Below are positions 52,280 through 61,899 of a stretch of DNA of 64,000 nt, piece by piece. Source of the DNA: Mycobacterium sp. UM_CSW (GTDB taxonomy: Bacteria > Actinomycetota > Actinomycetes > Mycobacteriales > Mycobacteriaceae); assembly GCF_000455205.1 (NCBI RefSeq), contig NZ_AUWQ01000001.1, forward strand, positions 1 to 64,000, read 5' to 3'. Every line of letters starts with the position of its first letter. Within the stretch, counting starts at the first letter, position 1. A program made the translations under genes and the position numbers. Below the pieces are notes generated by a model. It saw only the letters and a program-made list of their open reading frames with translations, was not told where the DNA came from and did not search any database.

Positions 52280-53470
52280 GTGTCGTATGTTGTTGCGTTG
52301 CCAGAGGTGATGTCCGCCGCGGCCACGGACGTGGCTTCGATTGGTTCGGTGGTCGCGACGGCAAACCGCGGCGTGGCAGGCGCCACCACGGAGGTGTTGG
52401 CCGCGGCCGAGGACGAGGTCTCCGCGGCGATCGCCGCCGTGTTCTCCGCGCACGGCCAGGGCTATCAGGCCCTCAGTTCGCAGGCGGCGGCCTACCACAA
52501 CCGGTTCGTGCAGGCCTTGAGCGGCGCATCCGGCGCGTACTCCGCCGCCGAGGCGGCCAACGCATCGCCTTTGGCGGCGCTCGAGCAGGCGCTGCTCGGT
52601 GTGCAGCAGGAAATCCAGCAGATCCCCACGGCGCTGGGGAACGGTGTCAGCCAGGGATTCGATGTTCTGTTCGCAGACCCGCATTCACCCCTGTTGGCGC
52701 TGCTTACCGGCGACAATCCGTTCACGGGCATCATCGGAACCAACAACCCGCCGCGGTTGTTGACGTTGCTGCTCGGAGAAACGGTGCAGCACACCACCTA
52801 TAACGGGATGCCCGTCGTGCAGATCACGCCGGCTCATCCGAACGGCGATTACGTGGTGGCCATTCATGGTGGCGCGTTCATCTTGCCGCCGTCGATCTTC
52901 CATTGGATCGACTACACGGTGATGGCCTATCAGACCGGCGCGACCATCGAGGTGCCGATCTACCCGCTGCTGCAGCAGGGCGGCACCGCCAACACCGTGG
53001 TGCCCAATATCGCCGGCCTCATCTCGCAGGAGATCACCCTGCACGGTGCCTCGCACGTCAGCGTGACCGGTGACTCCGCGGGCGGCAACCTCGCCCTGGC
53101 GGCTGCCAAATACCTGGTGGCCCACGGTCAACCGGTGCCGTCGTCGATGGTCCTGCTTTCTCCCTGGCTCGACCTGGCGCACGACGGGGGTCAGATCGGC
53201 AGGGTGTGGGCGGGCGGCCTTTCCATCACCGATCCCGAGGTGAGTCCGCTGTACGGGCCGCTGACCGGCCTGCCCCCGACATATGTCTACTCGGGCTCGT
53301 TCGATTCCCTCTACAACGAGACGCTTGCCCTCCAGCAAATAGCCCTGGCCGACGGGGCCCCGATGGGCTTCGTGCTTGCGCAGGGCCAAGTTCACGACTG
53401 GATTCTGCTGACCCCGACCGGCCCCCGTTACTGGGCGCAGATCGATCAGGAACTCGGTCTCGTGCACTGA
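52280..53470 (+). CDS. PE-domain alpha/beta-hydrolase (esterase/lipase)
   Basis: 396 residues: an N-terminal PE domain (1-95; Pro8-Glu9 in VALPEVM, Ala-rich helices, YxxxE-type AAYHNRFVQALSGAS end) fused to a hormone-sensitive-lipase-like esterase. Seen: oxyanion HGGAF (196-200), nucleophile Ser266 in VTGDSAGGN, Asp342 in SGSFDSLYNE and His372 in GQVHDW. The PE part directs ESX secretion, so the enzyme acts at the cell surface or outside, comparable to LipY and other PE/PPE hydrolases. GTG 52280. Substrate probably an ester of a fatty acid. Confidence 0.9.
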   Translation: MSYVVALPEVMSAAATDVASIGSVVATANRGVAGATTEVLAAAEDEVSAAIAAVFSAHGQGYQALSSQAAAYHNRFVQALSGASGAYSAAEAANASPLAALEQALLGVQQEIQQIPTALGNGVSQGFDVLFADPHSPLLALLTGDNPFTGIIGTNNPPRLLTLLLGETVQHTTYNGMPVVQITPAHPNGDYVVAIHGGAFILPPSIFHWIDYTVMAYQTGATIEVPIYPLLQQGGTANTVVPNIAGLISQEITLHGASHVSVTGDSAGGNLALAAAKYLVAHGQPVPSSMVLLSPWLDLAHDGGQIGRVWAGGLSITDPEVSPLYGPLTGLPPTYVYSGSFDSLYNETLALQQIALADGAPMGFVLAQGQVHDWILLTPTGPRYWAQIDQELGLVH

Positions 53471-53612
53471 CCTTGAGCCACGTAAGCGCGCGGGGGATTT
53501 AACTAGTCCATTGCGCTAGCTGGCCCGCCGTCGACGGCGGAATCCTCAGCAGCAGTACAAAGCAAGATCCGCTCACGGGAAATGTCGTCTCGCAGGCGGC
53601 CCTCTGAGCCAG

Positions 53613-54095
53613 TCACGGCCGGCTACGCGATGCCTGGTGGGCGCGGAAGCCCGGCCCGGGTTCGGGTGTCACATTGCGTGCGGTGATCTCGTCGCCGCAG
53701 TGCGCGCAGATGAGGCGGGGCTCGATGGACTCGCCACAGGTTTGGTGGCGCAGCACGATCGGTGGCCCGTCGGGGTTCGGCAAGTGCTCGTCACCCCACC
53801 GCATGAGCACGACGATCGCCCCGAAGAGTTCCCGTCCCGAATCGGTGAGCCGGTACTCGTGTCGCTCGGGATCCCGGGAATAGGGCACCCGGTCAACAAG
53901 GCCCACATCGACGAGCATCCGCAGCCGCGACGACAGCGTGGGCCGCGGAATGTTGAGGTTGCGCGCGAGCTGACCAAAGCGCTGCACCCCGAAGAACGCC
54001 TCGCGCAGGATCAGCAGCGTCCACCGCTCGCCCACCAATTCGAGCGCACGCCCGACCGACTCCCCTTCGAAGCGGTGGGACAGATCGGCGGCCAT
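53613..54095 (-). CDS. HxlR-family transcriptional regulator with C-terminal zinc-ribbon-like motif
   Basis: A 160-residue winged-helix HxlR regulator: VGRALELVGERWTLLILREAFFGVQRFGQLARNLNIPRPTLSSRLRMLVDVGLVDR (residues ~14-70), then the wing YRLTDSGRELF. The family usually stops near residue 115. Here a tail adds HQTCGESIEPRLICAHCGDEIT, with C-G ... C-x-x-C spacing that could bind zinc or sense redox state. Divergent from the redox cluster at 54176, with several operator-like repeats between; it likely represses both. Confidence 0.88.
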   Translation of the reverse strand: MAADLSHRFEGESVGRALELVGERWTLLILREAFFGVQRFGQLARNLNIPRPTLSSRLRMLVDVGLVDRVPYSRDPERHEYRLTDSGRELFGAIVVLMRWGDEHLPNPDGPPIVLRHQTCGESIEPRLICAHCGDEITARNVTPEPGPGFRAHQASRSRP

Positions 54096-54096
54096 A

Positions 54097-54153
54097 GTTC
54101 AATAACTGTACCCGGTTCAATTGCTGAACCATAGGTGGTAACGTAATTGAACC
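54097..54153. promoter_or_regulatory. Operator array in the hxlR / dehydrogenase divergent region
   Basis: Three related elements: GTTCAAT (54097-54103), the perfect inverted repeat GGTTCA-attgc-TGAACC (54114-54130), and ATTGAACC (54146-54153). The hxlR -10-like TACAGT (minus strand, 54110-54105) and a TAACGT for the forward gene lie among them, so binding would block both promoters. Confidence 0.75.
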
Positions 54154-54175
54154 ACTACAGCCACCGGGAGCCCCA

Positions 54176-55300
54176 ATGACTCATAGCGACACCGAGACCC
54201 TCGCCGAGAAGATCGCGTTGACGGCCGGGGAGATGTCGGCCGAGATCGACCGCGATCGCCGACTTCCGGACGAACTGGTAGCCCGGCTGCGCGAGGCCGG
54301 GCTGTTGCGCGCCACCATGCCGCGGGAGGTCGAGGCGCTGGAGCTGGCGCCCGGACCGGCGCTGCGGTGCGCCGAAGCGGTGGCGCGCGGCAACGCATCG
54401 GCCGGATGGTGCGTGTCGATCGCGATCACCAGCGCGCTGCTGGTCGCTTACCTGCCGGCGTCGAGCCGCGGCGAGATGTTCGGCGGCGGCCGGGGCGTCG
54501 CGGCGGGGGTGTGGGCGCCGCGCGGCAAGGCCCGGTCGGTCGACGGCGGGGTGGTGGTGTCCGGGCGATGGCCGTTCTGCAGCGGGATCAACCACGCCGA
54601 CATGATGTTCGCCGGCTGCTTCGTCGACGAGCAGCGCGTGCCCTCCGTCGTCGCGCTACCCAAAGACGACCTGCAGGTGCTCGACACCTGGCACACGTTG
54701 GGCCTGCGCGGCACCGGCAGCCACGACACCGTCGCCGAGGAGGTCTTTGTGCCGGCCGATCGCGTGCTCTCGGTGTTCGACGGGCCGGTGATAGACCGCC
54801 CGCTGTATCGCTTCCCGGTGTTCGGATTTTTCGCGTTGTGCATCGGTGCGGCCGCGTTGGGGAATGCGCGGGCCGCGATCGACGATCTCGTCGAGCTGGC
54901 CGGCGCCAAGAAGGGACTGGGCGCGACGCGGACTCTGGCCGAACGGGCGGCGACCCAGGCGGCGGTGGCGACCGCCGAGGCCACGCTGGGCGCCGCCCGC
55001 GCGCTGTACTACGAGGCAATCGAGGAGGCCTGGCGGGCCAGCCAAAATCCTGACGCGGTGCCGGTGGCAATGCGCAACCGGCTCCGGCTGGCGGCCACGC
55101 ATGCAGTGCGGACGTCGGCCGACGTGGTGCGCACCATGTATGACCTGGCGGGTGGCAGCGCGATCTATGACAGCGCACCCCTGCAGCGCCGGTTGCGCGA
55201 CGCGTTCACGGCCACCGCCCACTTCCAGGTCAACGAGGCATCGCGCGAGTTGCCCGGCCGGGTCCTGCTCGACGTGCCCTCCGACGCGTCGATGCTGTGA
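54176..55300 (+). CDS. Acyl-CoA dehydrogenase-fold flavin monooxygenase-type protein
   Basis: A 374-residue protein of the HsaA/IacA-like branch (flavin-dependent oxygenases with acyl-CoA dehydrogenase fold). Seen: LPDELVARLREAGLLRATMPREVEALELAPGPALRCAEAVARGNASAGWCVSI, SGRWPFCSGINHADMMFAG, and the C-terminal YDLAGGSAIYDSAPLQRRLRDAFTATAHFQV. The last segment replaces the Glu-type dehydrogenase end with the H-F-Q pattern of oxygenases. It would need reduced flavin from a partner. GTGA overlap with the next gene. Confidence 0.8.
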   Translation: MTHSDTETLAEKIALTAGEMSAEIDRDRRLPDELVARLREAGLLRATMPREVEALELAPGPALRCAEAVARGNASAGWCVSIAITSALLVAYLPASSRGEMFGGGRGVAAGVWAPRGKARSVDGGVVVSGRWPFCSGINHADMMFAGCFVDEQRVPSVVALPKDDLQVLDTWHTLGLRGTGSHDTVAEEVFVPADRVLSVFDGPVIDRPLYRFPVFGFFALCIGAAALGNARAAIDDLVELAGAKKGLGATRTLAERAATQAAVATAEATLGAARALYYEAIEEAWRASQNPDAVPVAMRNRLRLAATHAVRTSADVVRTMYDLAGGSAIYDSAPLQRRLRDAFTATAHFQVNEASRELPGRVLLDVPSDASML

Positions 55301-56262
55301 CCGGCATCGAAGTCGCCCTGCCGTTCTGGCTGGACCGGCCCGACGACGAGGCAATGGACGTTGCGCTGGCGGCGTCCGATGCGGGCTTCGACGCGGTGTG
55401 GATCGGCGAGATGGCCACCTATGACGCGTTCGCGCTCGCGACCGCGGTCGGGCTGCGCGCGCCCGGCATGACGCTGAAGATCGGGCCGCTGGCCGTTGGT
55501 GTTCGCGGCCCGGTGGGACTGGCGCTGGGTGTCAGTTCGGTCGCCTCCCTCACCGGTAGCCGGGTCGACATCGCGTTGGGGGCCTCCAGTCCGGCGATCG
55601 TGACCGGCTGGCATGACCGTGAATGGGCGCACCACGTCCCTGTCATGCGGGAAACCATCGAATGTCTGCGGGCGATATTGACGGGCACGCGCGTCGAGTA
55701 CAGCGGCCGGCACGTCGGCAGTCATGGGTTTCGGCTGCGCGATCCGCGTCCCGATACGCGAATTGCTTTGGGGGCGTTTGGGTCTGGCATGATCCGCCTG
55801 GCCGCGCGGCGCGCCGACGAGGTCGTGCTCAACCTCGCCTCGACGGCCCGCGTCGCCGGGGTTCGTGAGGCGATCGACGCCGCAGCCGCCGCTGCCGGGC
55901 GCCCCGCCCCGCGCCTGACGGTGTGGGTGCCCGCCGCGCTCAACCCCGGTGCCGCCGCGCACGCCCAGCTGGCCGCTCAGCTGGCGGTATATCTCGGCCC
56001 GCCCGGCTACGGGGAAATGTTCAGCGCCTTGGGCTTTGCCGACCTCGTCGGCAAGGCTCGTGCCGGTGCCACCCGCCGCGAACTCGCCGCAGCCATTCCC
56101 GTCGAATTGCCCGACCGGGTGGGCGCATTGGGGACCGCCGATCGAGTCGCCGAACGGCTCGACGCCTACCGCGAAGCCGGCGCCGACTGCGTCGCGGTGG
56201 TGCCCTCGACCGCCGAAGACCCGGGCGGACGGGAAACCCTCGGCGCTATCCAGAAGAGGTGA
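55297..56262 (+). CDS. LLM-class F420-dependent oxidoreductase
   Basis: Luciferase-like TIM-barrel oxidoreductase, 321 residues, of the actinobacterial F420-dependent type. Seen: EVALPFWLDRPDDEAMDVALAASDAGFDAVWIGEM, TLKIGPLAVGVRGPVGLALGVSSVASLTGSRVDIALGASSP, HVPVMRETIECLRAIL and DRVAERLDAYREAGADCVAVVP. GTG 55297 overlaps the upstream stop. F420 rather than FMN is inferred from the subgroup and host. It sits in a three-enzyme redox operon. Confidence 0.82.
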   Translation: MTGIEVALPFWLDRPDDEAMDVALAASDAGFDAVWIGEMATYDAFALATAVGLRAPGMTLKIGPLAVGVRGPVGLALGVSSVASLTGSRVDIALGASSPAIVTGWHDREWAHHVPVMRETIECLRAILTGTRVEYSGRHVGSHGFRLRDPRPDTRIALGAFGSGMIRLAARRADEVVLNLASTARVAGVREAIDAAAAAAGRPAPRLTVWVPAALNPGAAAHAQLAAQLAVYLGPPGYGEMFSALGFADLVGKARAGATRRELAAAIPVELPDRVGALGTADRVAERLDAYREAGADCVAVVPSTAEDPGGRETLGAIQKR

Positions 56263-57317: not shown

Positions 57318-57671
57318 ATGACTGCTGCTGTCGATCCATCGGTGCCGCCCAGTGGGACCGGCTGCGCCGAGTGTGATGCCACCGGCGGCTGGTGGGTGCA
57401 CCTGCGGCGGTGCGCCGCCTGCGGCAACGTCGGTTGCTGCGACGATTCGCTGGCACGGCACGCGACGAAGCACTGGCGAGAGAGTGGGCACCCGATCATC
57501 CGATCATTCGAGCCGGGCGAGGATTGGTTTTGGGACTACGAGGCCAATGACTACTACGAGGGTCCCCAACTCTCCCCGCCGGAATGCCGTCCCCGGGACC
57601 AGACGGCCCCAGGTCCCCGCAATCGGGTGCCGCGCAACTGGGCCGAACTGCTCCGTCAGCAACACGACTGA
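57318..57671 (+). CDS. UBP-type zinc-finger protein
   Basis: A 117-residue protein composed mostly of a UBP-type zinc finger, a fold better known in eukaryotic deubiquitinases. Zinc ligands: CAECDATGGWWVHLRRCAACGNVGCCD, then HATKHWRESGHPI. A short acidic and Trp-rich tail follows (DWFWDYEANDYYEG), which in bacteria often accompanies this domain. Role unknown: mycobacteria have no ubiquitin, though they have Pup. SD GGAGG precedes ATG 57318. Confidence 0.85.
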   Translation: MTAAVDPSVPPSGTGCAECDATGGWWVHLRRCAACGNVGCCDDSLARHATKHWRESGHPIIRSFEPGEDWFWDYEANDYYEGPQLSPPECRPRDQTAPGPRNRVPRNWAELLRQQHD

Positions 57672-57705: not shown

Positions 57706-59424
57706 ATGGGTCCAATGATCCTCGCCATCGACCTGGGCAAGACGTCGTGTCGCGCCTGCGGCGACGGCCGGAGGACCGAGGGGGCGGGCGCGCCCGGCCT
57801 CGCGACGCCCGGCGGCGTGCGGGCCGCGGAGGCGGCGATCCTCGCCGTCGCGCGAGATTTCCGACCGGTCGACGAGGTGATCGTGGGGGCCGCCGGGGCG
57901 CTGAATGCGCCGGCCGCGGCGCGCGCGCTGGCCGAGTCGCTGCTGACGTCGCTGCGGGCCGAGCGGGTCGCCGTGACAGGTGACAGCGTGATCGCCCACG
58001 CGGGCGCGCTGAACGGCAAGCCGGGCGTCGTGCTGGTCGCCGGGACCGGAGTCGTGGCGCTCGCGATCGGCGCGGACGGCGCGCTGCGCACCGCCGACGG
58101 CTGGGGCCCGTGGCTGGGCGACGAGGGAGGCGGCGCGTGGATCGGCGCCGCGGGCCTGCGCGCGGCGCTGCGCGCCCACGACGGCCGCGGCCCGTCCACC
58201 ACGCTGCTGGACGCCGCCCGCGCCCGATTCGGTGCGCCCGAATCGTGGCCGGCGCAGCTCACTGACGCGGCGGCGGTCGCGTCGTTCGCGCCCGCCGTCC
58301 TCGCCGCGCAAGACGACCCGGTGGCGTCGGCGATCGTCGGCGCCGCCGCCGAGTCGCTTAGCGCGACCGCCCGCGCGGCCGGGGATGGGCCGGTCGCGAT
58401 GGTCGGCGGCCTGGCGGGGGTGGAAGCGCTGCGTAAACAGCTCGACTTGATCCCGGCCGCCGGCGACGCGCTCGACGGCGCGCTGCGGCTCGCCGCGATT
58501 CACGAGCCGCACGTGATCCGCGTGCAGGCGGCCGCCCCCCGGAACGGGCTCGACGCGCTCGCCACCGAGGGTTCCCGACCCGGCCTCGACGACCTGGACC
58601 TGAGGCCGATCGGCGAGGTCGTGGCGCTGCTCGTCGCCGCCGAGGGCGAGGCGCACGCAGCGGTTGCGGCGGCGGTCCCGCGGATCGCCGCGGCGGCCGA
58701 AGCCATCGTCGCGCGGCTCGAGCGGGGAGGCCGCCTGATCTATGTCGGGGCCGGGACACCCGGACGCCTGGGTGTGCTCGACGCCGCCGAGTGCAAGCCG
58801 ACGTTCGGCACCGACCTCGTGCGTGGCGTAATCGCCGGCGGGAGCGCGGCATTGACCGAGGCGATCGAGGGTGCCGAGGACGCGTTCGACCCCGCCGATC
58901 TCGCCGATCTCAGCGCCGCCGACGCGCTGGTCGGGATCACGGCGTCGGGCCGGACACCCTACGTGCTGGGGGCGCTCGAGCATGCGCGAGCGGTGGGAGC
59001 GCTGACGGTCGCGATCGTCAACAACCCGGGCAGCGAGGCGTCCGCCGACATAATGGTCGAGCTGTTGACCGGACCGGAGGTGCTCGCCGGCTCGACCCGG
59101 CTGACCGCGGGGACGGCTCAGAAGGTGGTGCTCAACGCGCTTTCGACCAGCGTCATGATCGCGCTCGGCAAAGCCTACGGGCCGCGGATGGTCGATGTCC
59201 GCACCACCAGCGCCAAGTTGCGTCGCCGCGCCGTGCGCATCGTCCGCGACGCGGCCGGGGTCGACGAAGAGGCCGCGGTCGCCGCGCTCGCCGCCGCGGG
59301 CGGCCACGCCAAGACCGCGATCGTCACGCTGCTCGCCGGCGTCGACGCGGCCGAGGCCGCCCGTCGGCTCGACCGGGCCCGCGGACGCGTGCGGGACGCG
59401 CTCATTACGGGTGCGCCGCAATGA
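57706..59424 (+). CDS. Kinase-MurQ fusion: sugar kinase plus N-acetylmuramic acid 6-phosphate etherase
   Basis: 572 residues, two fused enzymes. Residues ~1-270: BadF/BcrA-type ATPase (N-acetylhexosamine kinase) with AIDLGKTSCRA, TGDSVIAHAGAL containing the catalytic Asp93, VAGTGVVAL and VGGLAGVEAL. Residues ~280-565: MurQ, with LIYVGAGTPGRLGVLDAAECKPTFG (catalytic Glu362; P352 where Ser is usual, K364 where Pro is usual), EGAED at 388-392, ITASGRTPYV, and TRLTAGTAQKVVLNALSTSVM. Together they would phosphorylate MurNAc and remove its lactyl ether to give GlcNAc-6-phosphate. ATG 57706; ATG 57715 is an alternative. A beta-lactamase-like lipoprotein gene follows after 55 bp. Confidence 0.85.
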   Translation: MGPMILAIDLGKTSCRACGDGRRTEGAGAPGLATPGGVRAAEAAILAVARDFRPVDEVIVGAAGALNAPAAARALAESLLTSLRAERVAVTGDSVIAHAGALNGKPGVVLVAGTGVVALAIGADGALRTADGWGPWLGDEGGGAWIGAAGLRAALRAHDGRGPSTTLLDAARARFGAPESWPAQLTDAAAVASFAPAVLAAQDDPVASAIVGAAAESLSATARAAGDGPVAMVGGLAGVEALRKQLDLIPAAGDALDGALRLAAIHEPHVIRVQAAAPRNGLDALATEGSRPGLDDLDLRPIGEVVALLVAAEGEAHAAVAAAVPRIAAAAEAIVARLERGGRLIYVGAGTPGRLGVLDAAECKPTFGTDLVRGVIAGGSAALTEAIEGAEDAFDPADLADLSAADALVGITASGRTPYVLGALEHARAVGALTVAIVNNPGSEASADIMVELLTGPEVLAGSTRLTAGTAQKVVLNALSTSVMIALGKAYGPRMVDVRTTSAKLRRRAVRIVRDAAGVDEEAAVAALAAAGGHAKTAIVTLLAGVDAAEAARRLDRARGRVRDALITGAPQ

Positions 59425-59479
59425 AATCCGCTTCCTTGACAAGCCTTGCTGTCGGACCCAACATCATGGCGGGATCAAC

Positions 59480-61012
59480 ATGAAGCGCATGCGAAGGGCC
59501 ATCGCCGTCGGAGCCGTCGTACTCGTGGCGGGTTGCTCGCATGCCCATGTATCGCAGACGGCGGTAATCGGCAGTTCGCAGCCACCGCCGACGACGCCGG
59601 CGCCGTTGCCCGCCGCGGCTCCCGCGCCCAGCTTCCCAACCCTCTCCAAACCGCCCGACGCGGCCCCGGCACCTGATTTCGCAACGGTTTCCAAGCTGAT
59701 CAACGACGCGATTGCCGCGAACAGGCTGCCCGGTGCCGTGGTCGTGATCGGGCACGCCGGACAGGTCGTCTTCCACCAGGCGTACGGCTCGCGCAAACTC
59801 GCCGGTGAACCCGGGCTGGACGGATCGCCCGCACCGGCCGAGCCGATGACCGAGGACACGCTCTTCGACATGGCGTCCCTGACGAAGATCCTGGCGACAG
59901 CCCCTGCCGTCATGCAGCTCTACGAACAAGGCAAGGTTCAGTTCGACGACCCGGTGCAGCAGTACCTGCCTGACTTCAACGCGACGGACGACCCACGGCG
60001 CGCAAAGGTAACCGTTCGCATGTTGCTGACGCACACGTCGGGCGAAACGGGCGACGTCGAACTCAAAGATCCATGGGGACTGGACGAAGCGAACAAAGCG
60101 GAAGGCATCCATCGCGCGCTCACGACGCCGCTGGAGTCGGAACCCGGCGGGGTCTTCCGCTACTCCGACATCAACTTCATCCTGCTCGGTGCGCTGATCG
60201 AGAAAATCACCGGCGAGGCGGAAGACGATTACGTTGCCGAACACGTGCTCGCACCTCTTGGCATGCAAGACACCCGCTACCTCCCCGCGGACAAAGCCTG
60301 TGGCCCGCACACGGTCCGGGGAGCCGCGATTGGATGGGCCGGCCCGTCAACTCCGAACGGATGTCCCGCGGGCGCGTGGAGCATGGACCTCTTGCCGCGC
60401 ATCGCGCCGACGGCGCGCGACGAAGATGGCCGGGCCGATCCAGGCAAGAATCCCGATCTCGATTACCTGATTCGGGGCACCGTGCAGGACACGACGGCGC
60501 GGCGCATGGGCGGAGTGGCCGGGCATGCCGGGGTTTTTTCGACGGCGCACGATGTGGGCATCTACGCGCAGGCGCTGCTCGATCGGCTTGCGGGCCGTCC
60601 CAGCGAATTTCCCTTGGCGCAAACGACTTTGGAGTTGATGACCACTCCGCAGCAGCCGGGCCATACGCCCCAGCAGCTCCAGGCGGCCAACGACGCCGCC
60701 CGCCAAGCCCTCGCAATGCGGCGAAGCCCCGCATATCCGCTGCTCGCCGCGCGCTATCCGGCGATCGCGGGCCAAAACCTGCGCGGCTTTGGCTGGGATA
60801 TCGATACGCCCCTTTCGATGGCGCGGGGCATGATCTTTCCGATCGGCAGCTTCGGCCACACCGGGTTCACCGGAACCTCACTCTGGCTTGACCCGCGCTC
60901 CGATACCTACGTAGTTCTGCTCGCCAACTCGATCCACACGCGGGGCAGTGAACCGATCTCGGATTTGCGCGGCGAAGTGGCGACGGCGGCGGCGCGGGCG
61001 TTGGGTCTTTAA
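59480..61012 (+). CDS. Serine beta-lactamase-like (class C fold) lipoprotein
   Basis: 510 residues. Lipoprotein signal MKRMRRAIAVGAVVLVAGC with Cys19, a Pro/Ala-rich linker to ~65, then a beta-lactamase/esterase (AmpC-EstB) fold with S-L-T-K (Ser133, Lys136) and Tyr228-Ser-Asp230. Near the C-terminus SFGHTGFTGTS provides the third motif (HTG). B. subtilis has the same type of protein (YbbE/AmlB) in its murQ operon, so a role in peptidoglycan turnover rather than drug hydrolysis is likely. Located on the outer face of the membrane. Confidence 0.87.
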   Translation: MKRMRRAIAVGAVVLVAGCSHAHVSQTAVIGSSQPPPTTPAPLPAAAPAPSFPTLSKPPDAAPAPDFATVSKLINDAIAANRLPGAVVVIGHAGQVVFHQAYGSRKLAGEPGLDGSPAPAEPMTEDTLFDMASLTKILATAPAVMQLYEQGKVQFDDPVQQYLPDFNATDDPRRAKVTVRMLLTHTSGETGDVELKDPWGLDEANKAEGIHRALTTPLESEPGGVFRYSDINFILLGALIEKITGEAEDDYVAEHVLAPLGMQDTRYLPADKACGPHTVRGAAIGWAGPSTPNGCPAGAWSMDLLPRIAPTARDEDGRADPGKNPDLDYLIRGTVQDTTARRMGGVAGHAGVFSTAHDVGIYAQALLDRLAGRPSEFPLAQTTLELMTTPQQPGHTPQQLQAANDAARQALAMRRSPAYPLLAARYPAIAGQNLRGFGWDIDTPLSMARGMIFPIGSFGHTGFTGTSLWLDPRSDTYVVLLANSIHTRGSEPISDLRGEVATAAARALGL

Positions 61013-61019
61013 GGGGCCT

Positions 61020-61754
61020 TCAGGTCCGCTCGAAATGTTGATAGTCGAGGGGAGCGGACCACTCGCCACCCCACCGCCAACCACGGTCGGTGAAGGCACG
61101 CACCGCCGGGTCGCCGATATGAAGGAGTCCCGGGTCGGTGCGGGTGCGATCCAAATAAGCCGCGGCGTTCCGCGGTTCGAAATACCCGTTGGCGTAGAGG
61201 CATGGGTTGACGAGCGTGTTGATATCGATAGCCCGCCCGTAAGCGTGCGGTGACCATTCATTGGTTCCGGGGATGAGTCGGCAATTGAACGCCGACGTGT
61301 TGTTGTCCTCCATCGACAGCTCGTCGTCGGCGTCCGAATAGTGGTCGACCGTCTGCATTTTCTCGATCGGATAGCCCAGCCGGTAAAGCTGCTCGAAGAT
61401 CGCGATGACCTCCGGCGCCAGCTCCTGATGCACGACGAGCTGGCCGCGGTGGGTCTGGCCGTCGAAACCGAGGTAGTCGACGTCGAGCCGTCGCAGCTGC
61501 TCGGGCTCGACGGGACAACCCGGCCGCCAGGTCGCGCCGAGTTCTGCGGCGGTGACCGGCTCTACCGTCGCACCCGCGGGTGCCGGCGACGCGCTCGCCG
61601 GCGACGGCGCGGGGGGTGACGACGACACGGCCGCCGACCACGACGGAGACGATGTGGCCGCATGCGGTGGCGGCGCGGCGGTGCATTGCACTAGCACGAC
61701 GCCGGCCGCGAGCACTTCCGCCAATACGGCACAGGGCCGCTGGAAGGGCGTCAA
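61020..61754 (-). CDS. M15-family D-Ala-D-Ala carboxypeptidase-like exported protein
   Basis: 244 residues with TTG 61754: an N-terminal hydrophobic signal (VLAEVLAAGVVLVQC), a Ser/Pro/Ala linker (~30-65), and an M15-type zinc peptidase domain. Zinc ligands: His170 and Asp177 in SPHAYGRAIDIN, His241 in QHFERT; also SMEDNNTSAFNCR, typical of the group. The -1 residue before Cys24 is Gln, so lipidation is doubtful. The frame is open to 61874 and the start is uncertain. It faces the lipoprotein gene end-to-end (7 bp gap). Confidence 0.82.
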   Translation of the reverse strand: MTPFQRPCAVLAEVLAAGVVLVQCTAAPPPHAATSSPSWSAAVSSSPPAPSPASASPAPAGATVEPVTAAELGATWRPGCPVEPEQLRRLDVDYLGFDGQTHRGQLVVHQELAPEVIAIFEQLYRLGYPIEKMQTVDHYSDADDELSMEDNNTSAFNCRLIPGTNEWSPHAYGRAIDINTLVNPCLYANGYFEPRNAAAYLDRTRTDPGLLHIGDPAVRAFTDRGWRWGGEWSAPLDYQHFERT

Positions 61755-61899
61755 TGGAGATGAATCCTCACCGTTATCCCGGACAAGTCCGGTGCCAACG
61801 CTACCGCGGACGGAAATCGCAGCCTGTGCTACAGCAGAAGTGGGTAAACAACCGGCATCAGCTTGGCCAATCACGTCAGTAATCGGAAGGTGGCATCGG

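Follow-up and report, generated by a model that had tools for sequence, protein, structure and literature searches.

The window analysed here is a stretch of 64,000 nucleotides, positions 1 to 64,000 of contig NZ_AUWQ01000001.1 from Mycobacterium sp. UM_CSW. Its forward strand encodes a protein of 572 amino acids (57706..59424; ATG at 57706 taken as the start, stop codon 59422-59424) in which a putative kinase for N-acetylmuramic acid (MurNAc) is fused to MurQ, the etherase for MurNAc 6-phosphate (MurNAc-6P). The N-terminal part (residues 1-270, 57706..58515) is a sugar kinase domain of the BadF/BcrA type, assigned with PF01869 and solved NagK/MurK relatives. It is followed by a linker (residues 271-281, 58516..58548), which is weakly conserved in the alignment and of low confidence in the predicted structure (predicted local distance difference test, pLDDT, below 50 at residues 278-280), and by the MurQ domain (residues 282-566, 58549..59403), which matched the models NF003915 and TIGR00274 and has the SIS fold of the MurQ structures 4lzj and 4s12. 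In the alignment of the relatives the block 261-280 had a mean identity of 0.69 and the block 201-220 a still lower one of 0.63. An earlier note on this DNA had read kinase and MurQ in a single frame; this was borne out, and the catalytic residues are intact in both domains. The fusion is confirmed as genuine and is no sequencing accident, since 63 of 396 Mycobacterium genomes gave full-length matches to the same protein.

The MurQ half scored above the cut-offs of two family models (NF003915, 335.9 against 168 bits; NF009222, 306.2 against 255 bits). It shares the family models, the SIS fold and both catalytic glutamates with the MurQ proteins of E. coli, H. influenzae (4LZJ, 47% identity in the fold alignment) and S. 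coelicolor (SCO4307). It differs from them in its position behind a kinase and in forming a separate clade; moreover, the usual proline at position 364 is replaced in the mycobacterial fused proteins, mostly by glycine or alanine. The two glutamates, E362 and E391, were kept in all 50 full-length relatives from the 59 loci examined; they align with the residues that we take to be Glu83 and Glu114 of the E. coli enzyme. Six pairwise comparisons revealed purifying selection on both domains, with ratios of nonsynonymous to synonymous substitution rates (dN/dS) of 0.10-0.16 for MurQ and 0.21-0.33 for the kinase; residues 258-290 gave 0.14-0.79.

The kinase half exceeded the cut-off of PF01869 and has the ASKHA fold. 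All 50 full-length relatives have D9, G11 and T13 of its DxGxT motif (D9-T13); D93, by alignment the catalytic aspartate, is present in 49, with a gap in the remaining one. PF01869, fold, motif and aspartate are common to the solved MurK and NagK proteins of the BadF/BcrA type (8ZO3, 1ZC6 and 8OQW). The identity in the fold alignment is 22% with MurK from C. acetobutylicum (8ZO3) and 17% with MurK from T. forsythia (8OQW), and the sugar-pocket loop appears to differ; 1ZC6 from C. violaceum is another solved NagK/MurK relative.

Within the genus, 11 genomes contained the fused protein in part in addition to the 63 with end-to-end matches, and these are the same 74 of the 396 genomes in which MurQ exceeded its cut-off. 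No free-standing MurQ was found among the 396 genomes, with at most 3 to 5 candidates scored per genome. A TAA occurs in two of the 63 end-to-end rows, whose open frames are 569 and 590 amino acids long, probably because the alignment continues beyond the end. Among the partial matches are cases at contig ends, one with an assembly gap (M. parascrofulaceum, 562 N in locus L119) and one in a frameshifted draft (L104). In the named records both domains were matched at 55 mycobacterial loci, in a single frame at 54 of them; the sole broken frame lies at 3154-4855 of L104, a draft contig of Mycobacterium sp. E1747. Carriers include M. szulgai, M. angelicum, M. gordonae, M. asiaticum, M. scrofulaceum, M. 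colombiense, M. celatum, M. shimoidei, M. kyorinense, M. fragae, M. interjectum, M. intermedium, M. palustre, M. paraense, M. europaeum, M. alsense, M. arosiense, M. vulneris and Ca. M. methanotrophicum; we take these named carriers to be slow growers. In one further genome (G097) the fused gene is reduced to roughly its first 95 codons (L211, 1985-2281; G097:C2:518484-518789) and MurQ stayed below the cut-off across the genome; this remnant points to gene loss.

These counts bear on what has been published. M. tuberculosis is without murQ (PMC6572805), in agreement with the earlier note. According to PMC13041923, M. smegmatis is the only mycobacterium with MurQ. The absence from other mycobacteria holds for the species tested by those authors, but with MurQ over the cut-off in 74 of 396 genomes it fails as a rule for the genus. 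The M. smegmatis protein (MSMEG_0193) belongs to the same genus, has the same proposed step and genetically serves the use of MurNAc; MurK and MurQ carry separate names in PMC13041923, and the word fusion occurs nowhere in it. Titles and the beginnings of abstracts were searched for a MurK-MurQ fusion and none was found in print, most subscription papers being out of reach. Each part is known; within this search we did not find a single chain for both steps, nor its spread in Mycobacterium. The result is less a new kind of enzyme than a correction to a generalisation in the literature.

Larger samples were used to follow the fusion beyond the genus. Of 249 genomes from the order, 112 had MurQ above its cut-off, and both domains were spanned in one frame only in six Mycobacterium genomes, the host included, and in a genome of another family, G433; matches whose start lies at residue 123 or beyond, within the kinase part, were left out of this count, and one of them, G441, corresponds to locus L166. 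A sample of 296 genomes from the class yielded matches in 113, four of which, all Mycobacterium, spanned both domains. Among the named records none of the 17 non-mycobacterial loci with both domains has them in one frame. Seven long MurQ frames of 502-919 amino acids from other families were scanned as possible fusions: Pfam found no upstream domain in six of them (L158, L159, L160, L162, L164 and L166), which were rejected, and the seventh, L165 (also L179) of G433, is a true kinase-MurQ fusion with both domains confirmed by Pfam. Its MurQ half shows 54% identity, and its kinase half is more divergent.

Kinases with 40-54% identity to the one described here lie near an unfused MurQ in 16 loci, which comprise 11 from Streptomycetaceae, three from Microbacterium and two from Plantibacter. 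The genes are divergent in all 11 Streptomycetaceae loci and in tandem, kinase first, in Microbacterium and Plantibacter. The tandem order with the kinase first is also found in L123, a metagenome-assembled genome labelled Gammaproteobacteria; there the two genes overlap in ATGA, which serves as stop of the kinase gene and start of murQ. In a MurQ tree (80 of 136 usable rows) one clade on a long stem of 0.42 united the mycobacterial domains (14 rows, support 100/100); L123 was placed next to it (100/84), followed by the fused G433 on a long branch (97/74). MurQ from two other genera of the Mycobacteriaceae (L144, L145) grouped with Streptomycetaceae and others and not with the fused clade. The kinase tree (42 rows) gave no resolved sister group for the fused kinases. 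We infer that the fusion may have arisen from an overlapping kinase-murQ gene pair, which would be a simple origin; the fusion in G433 may go back to the same event or to a separate one.

From the two domains, their intact catalytic residues, the conserved single frame, the purifying selection and the pathway context we read the protein as a single bifunctional cytoplasmic enzyme of muramic-acid salvage, a MurNAc kinase and MurNAc-6P etherase that would produce N-acetylglucosamine 6-phosphate (GlcNAc-6P) and D-lactate, and we assign a probability of about 0.75 to this reading. Coupling of phosphorylation to ether cleavage, as put forward in the earlier note, would be the natural reading of such a fusion. 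After extracellular hydrolysis MurNAc would be taken up by some carrier and presumably phosphorylated at O6 with ATP by the N-terminal kinase. The C-terminal MurQ domain would then remove D-lactate from MurNAc-6P to give GlcNAc-6P, which NagA would convert to glucosamine 6-phosphate (GlcN-6P). As no classical NagB exceeded the cut-off in the host (26.8 bits against 236.9; the SIS-type NagB-II was not searched for), GlcN-6P would return to wall synthesis via GlmM and GlmU. The fusion might provide the two halves in equal amounts and possibly lower the level of free MurNAc-6P.

The host genome (6.39 Mb, 99.99% complete) is consistent with such a pathway. NagA and an enzyme of glycoside hydrolase family 3, the family of LpqI, exceeded their cut-offs, and of three BadF matches one did so. 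The genome contains no AnmK and no PTS_EIIC match, and thus nothing that qualifies as the MurP permease of the phosphotransferase system (PTS) known from the E. coli-type murQ operon. With no AnmK, no PTS EIIC and a single BadF protein over the cut-off, this kinase is the only source of MurNAc-6P found, in a search that did not extend to ROK-type kinases. S. coelicolor, which is without MurP, builds up MurNAc-6P on deletion of murQ (PMC5061867), so a MurNAc kinase exists in a pathway of this type. Mycobacterial NagA is active on GlcNAc-6P and not on MurNAc-6P (PMC6016474), and the lactyl etherase must therefore act before NagA. In M. smegmatis MurQ is required for the rescue of glmS depletion by MurNAc (PMC13041923). 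The carrier species would be models in which the MurNAc salvage route may be complete, and the fusion lends "Rosetta stone" support to the view that the unfused BadF kinases lying near murQ in some actinobacteria are MurNAc kinases.

Several observations weigh against the bifunctional enzyme. The cut-off of TIGR00274 was only just reached (302 of 302 bits), and the predicted template modelling score of 0.57 for the whole protein leaves the relative placement of the domains unsure. The 16 loci with a kinase near unfused MurQ had been fetched using patterns from both domains; among loci of the order sample a kinase match lay near MurQ in three of 12 (L144-L155) and in two of 20 (L156-L175, one of the two being the fused L165), and within flanks of about 1.5 kb none was found in five loci (L180-L184) or in 16 class loci (L185-L200). 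The kinase half reached 56 of 370 bits with the NagK_SO3507 equivalog model NF046058, far under the cut-off. When its pocket was mapped onto T. forsythia MurK by equal spacing with a constant offset of two (catalytic aspartate 95/93, second aspartate 141/139), the lactyl pocket S133-P134-L135 (PMC10465942) became D131-G132-W133, with the acidic D131 close to the expected position of the lactate carboxylate, and N119, the ligand of the C4 hydroxyl, became V117. Residues 133-137 have a pLDDT below 50. MurNAc binding is said not to be identifiable by sequence analysis (PMC10465942), and the substrate of this kinase cannot be read from its sequence.

The kinase half could instead act on N-acetylglucosamine (GlcNAc) or on hexosamines in general, so that the fusion would join two parallel feeders of NagA (GlcNAc to GlcNAc-6P and MurNAc-6P to GlcNAc-6P) and not two consecutive steps. 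D131 and V117, both unlike the MurNAc pocket of T. forsythia MurK, would fit such an enzyme; the best solved relative of the kinase half is a probable GlcNAc kinase, and the name of C. acetobutylicum MurK covers both sugars. Nevertheless we consider it unlikely, because the fused kinase would leave the etherase without a source of MurNAc-6P among those checked, and because similar kinases lie near murQ in some other actinobacteria. A further point concerns residue 92, a glycine here and a serine in several relatives, which by equal spacing equals residue 94 of T. forsythia MurK, where asparagine is said to block MurNAc (PMC10465942). The blocking asparagine is absent here, although C. acetobutylicum MurK carries it at the equivalent position and the rule is thus not strict.

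The earlier note had also suggested that P352 and K364 in the active-site loop might change the substrate, for example to the 6-phosphate of N-glycolyl-muramic acid, a sugar of the mycobacterial wall. We regard a shift of the etherase half to this substrate as very unlikely. The long stem of the mycobacterial clade would be compatible with it, as would the replacement of the usual proline at position 364, where the 50 full-length relatives (window left out) have glycine in 27 and alanine in 19, together 46, and lysine, valine, arginine and glutamate in one each. Also in favour, 46 to 99.6% of M. smegmatis disaccharides were N-glycolylated, depending on growth (PMC12617635, Table 1). However, K364 is rare and also occurs in an unfused MurQ from Bacillota, and position 352 is variable (proline in 46, serine in three, alanine in one), with proline also in three unfused Microbacterium MurQ proteins. 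In addition, mycobacterial NagA showed only low activity, with no kinetic values, on N-glycolylglucosamine 6-phosphate (PMC6016474), and the route would stall at this next step. On the conservation and the NagA data P352/K364 was rejected as an N-glycolyl signature.

A wider scenario, in which slow growers evolved a single-chain enzyme from MurNAc to GlcNAc-6P with handover from kinase to etherase and activity also on N-glycolyl substrates, and in which several lineages later lost it, seems distinctly unlikely to us; if true, the loss would explain why M. tuberculosis relies on a different lactyl etherase. That the MurQ half is a phosphosugar sensor regulating the kinase, as its relative GKRP does with glucokinase, is highly improbable given both catalytic glutamates in 50 of 50 relatives and the 47% identity to solved etherases. 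Least credible is a decaying or unused gene retained by chance: MurQ is below the cut-off in 322 of 396 genomes and G097 keeps only a fragment, but where the gene is retained, most frames are intact and the dN/dS values are low.

Downstream of the fused gene, at a distance of 55 nucleotides, lies a gene for a lipoprotein of the class-C beta-lactamase/PBP4B family (59480..61012, forward strand, PF00144) with the motifs S133-L-T-K, Y228-S-D and H460-T-G and a lipobox VAGC read by eye; PBP4B was its best NCBIfam model, under the cut-off (148.1 of 385). A convergent gene on the reverse strand (61020..61874, PF13539; the start is the longest possible and uncertain) encodes an M15-type D,D-peptidase with H210, D217 and H280. 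The earlier note had spoken of a cell-wall recycling locus. The neighbours are indeed present beside the fusion, but their association with it is loose: among the 59 mycobacterial loci, many of them cut by contig ends, the lipoprotein orthologue could be seen in 13, with a 27% paralogue in one more, and the M15 gene could be seen in 10. Of 198 genomes from the genus, taken to be G000-G197, 143 have the lipoprotein at E <= 1e-80, namely 30 of the 31 MurQ-positive and 113 of the 167 MurQ-negative ones. With the lipoprotein mostly in genomes without MurQ and the neighbours seldom in view, a dedicated operon was rejected; the lipoprotein is a possible, not a dedicated, partner of the fused enzyme, and the case for the M15 peptidase is weak. 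Another genome (G393) carries part of the kinase start a second time (codons 2-107; L212, 7749-8078), some 5.8 kb downstream of the fused gene; the lipoprotein and M15 genes stand between the two.

A related protein (30-38% identical) was present in the fetched MurQ region of seven of 20 other Mycobacteriales loci and of L123; the loci in which unfused MurQ has such a class-C beta-lactamase-family protein nearby are L157, L158, L161, L168, L171, L174, L175 and L123. The background was one non-orthologous match in 899 kb of mycobacterial loci. No such relative was found near MurQ in 11 Streptomycetaceae, five Microbacteriaceae and two Bacillota loci. The association of MurQ with this hydrolase recurs in other groups, yet is loose in Mycobacterium. 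AmiE of B. subtilis presumably has a class-C-type fold as well. The operons murQP-yfeW (PBP4B) of E. coli and murQRP-amiE-nagZ of B. subtilis (PMC5061867) likewise have MurQ near a secreted serine hydrolase of class-C type; they differ in that our host genome is without the PTS permease and the neighbouring gene is widespread without MurQ.

Just upstream of the fused gene a small Cys/His-rich open reading frame (57318-57671), by eye similar to a UBP-type zinc finger, gave no NCBIfam match and lies near the fusion in one of the 59 loci. Further upstream, positions 52280-56262 contain a row of genes for LipY (NF052352, 638.7 bits), an HxlR-type regulator (by eye), an HsaA-like oxygenase (below the cut-off) and an F420-dependent oxidoreductase of the Rv3093c family; we take this order to resemble Rv3097c-Rv3093c of M. 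tuberculosis.
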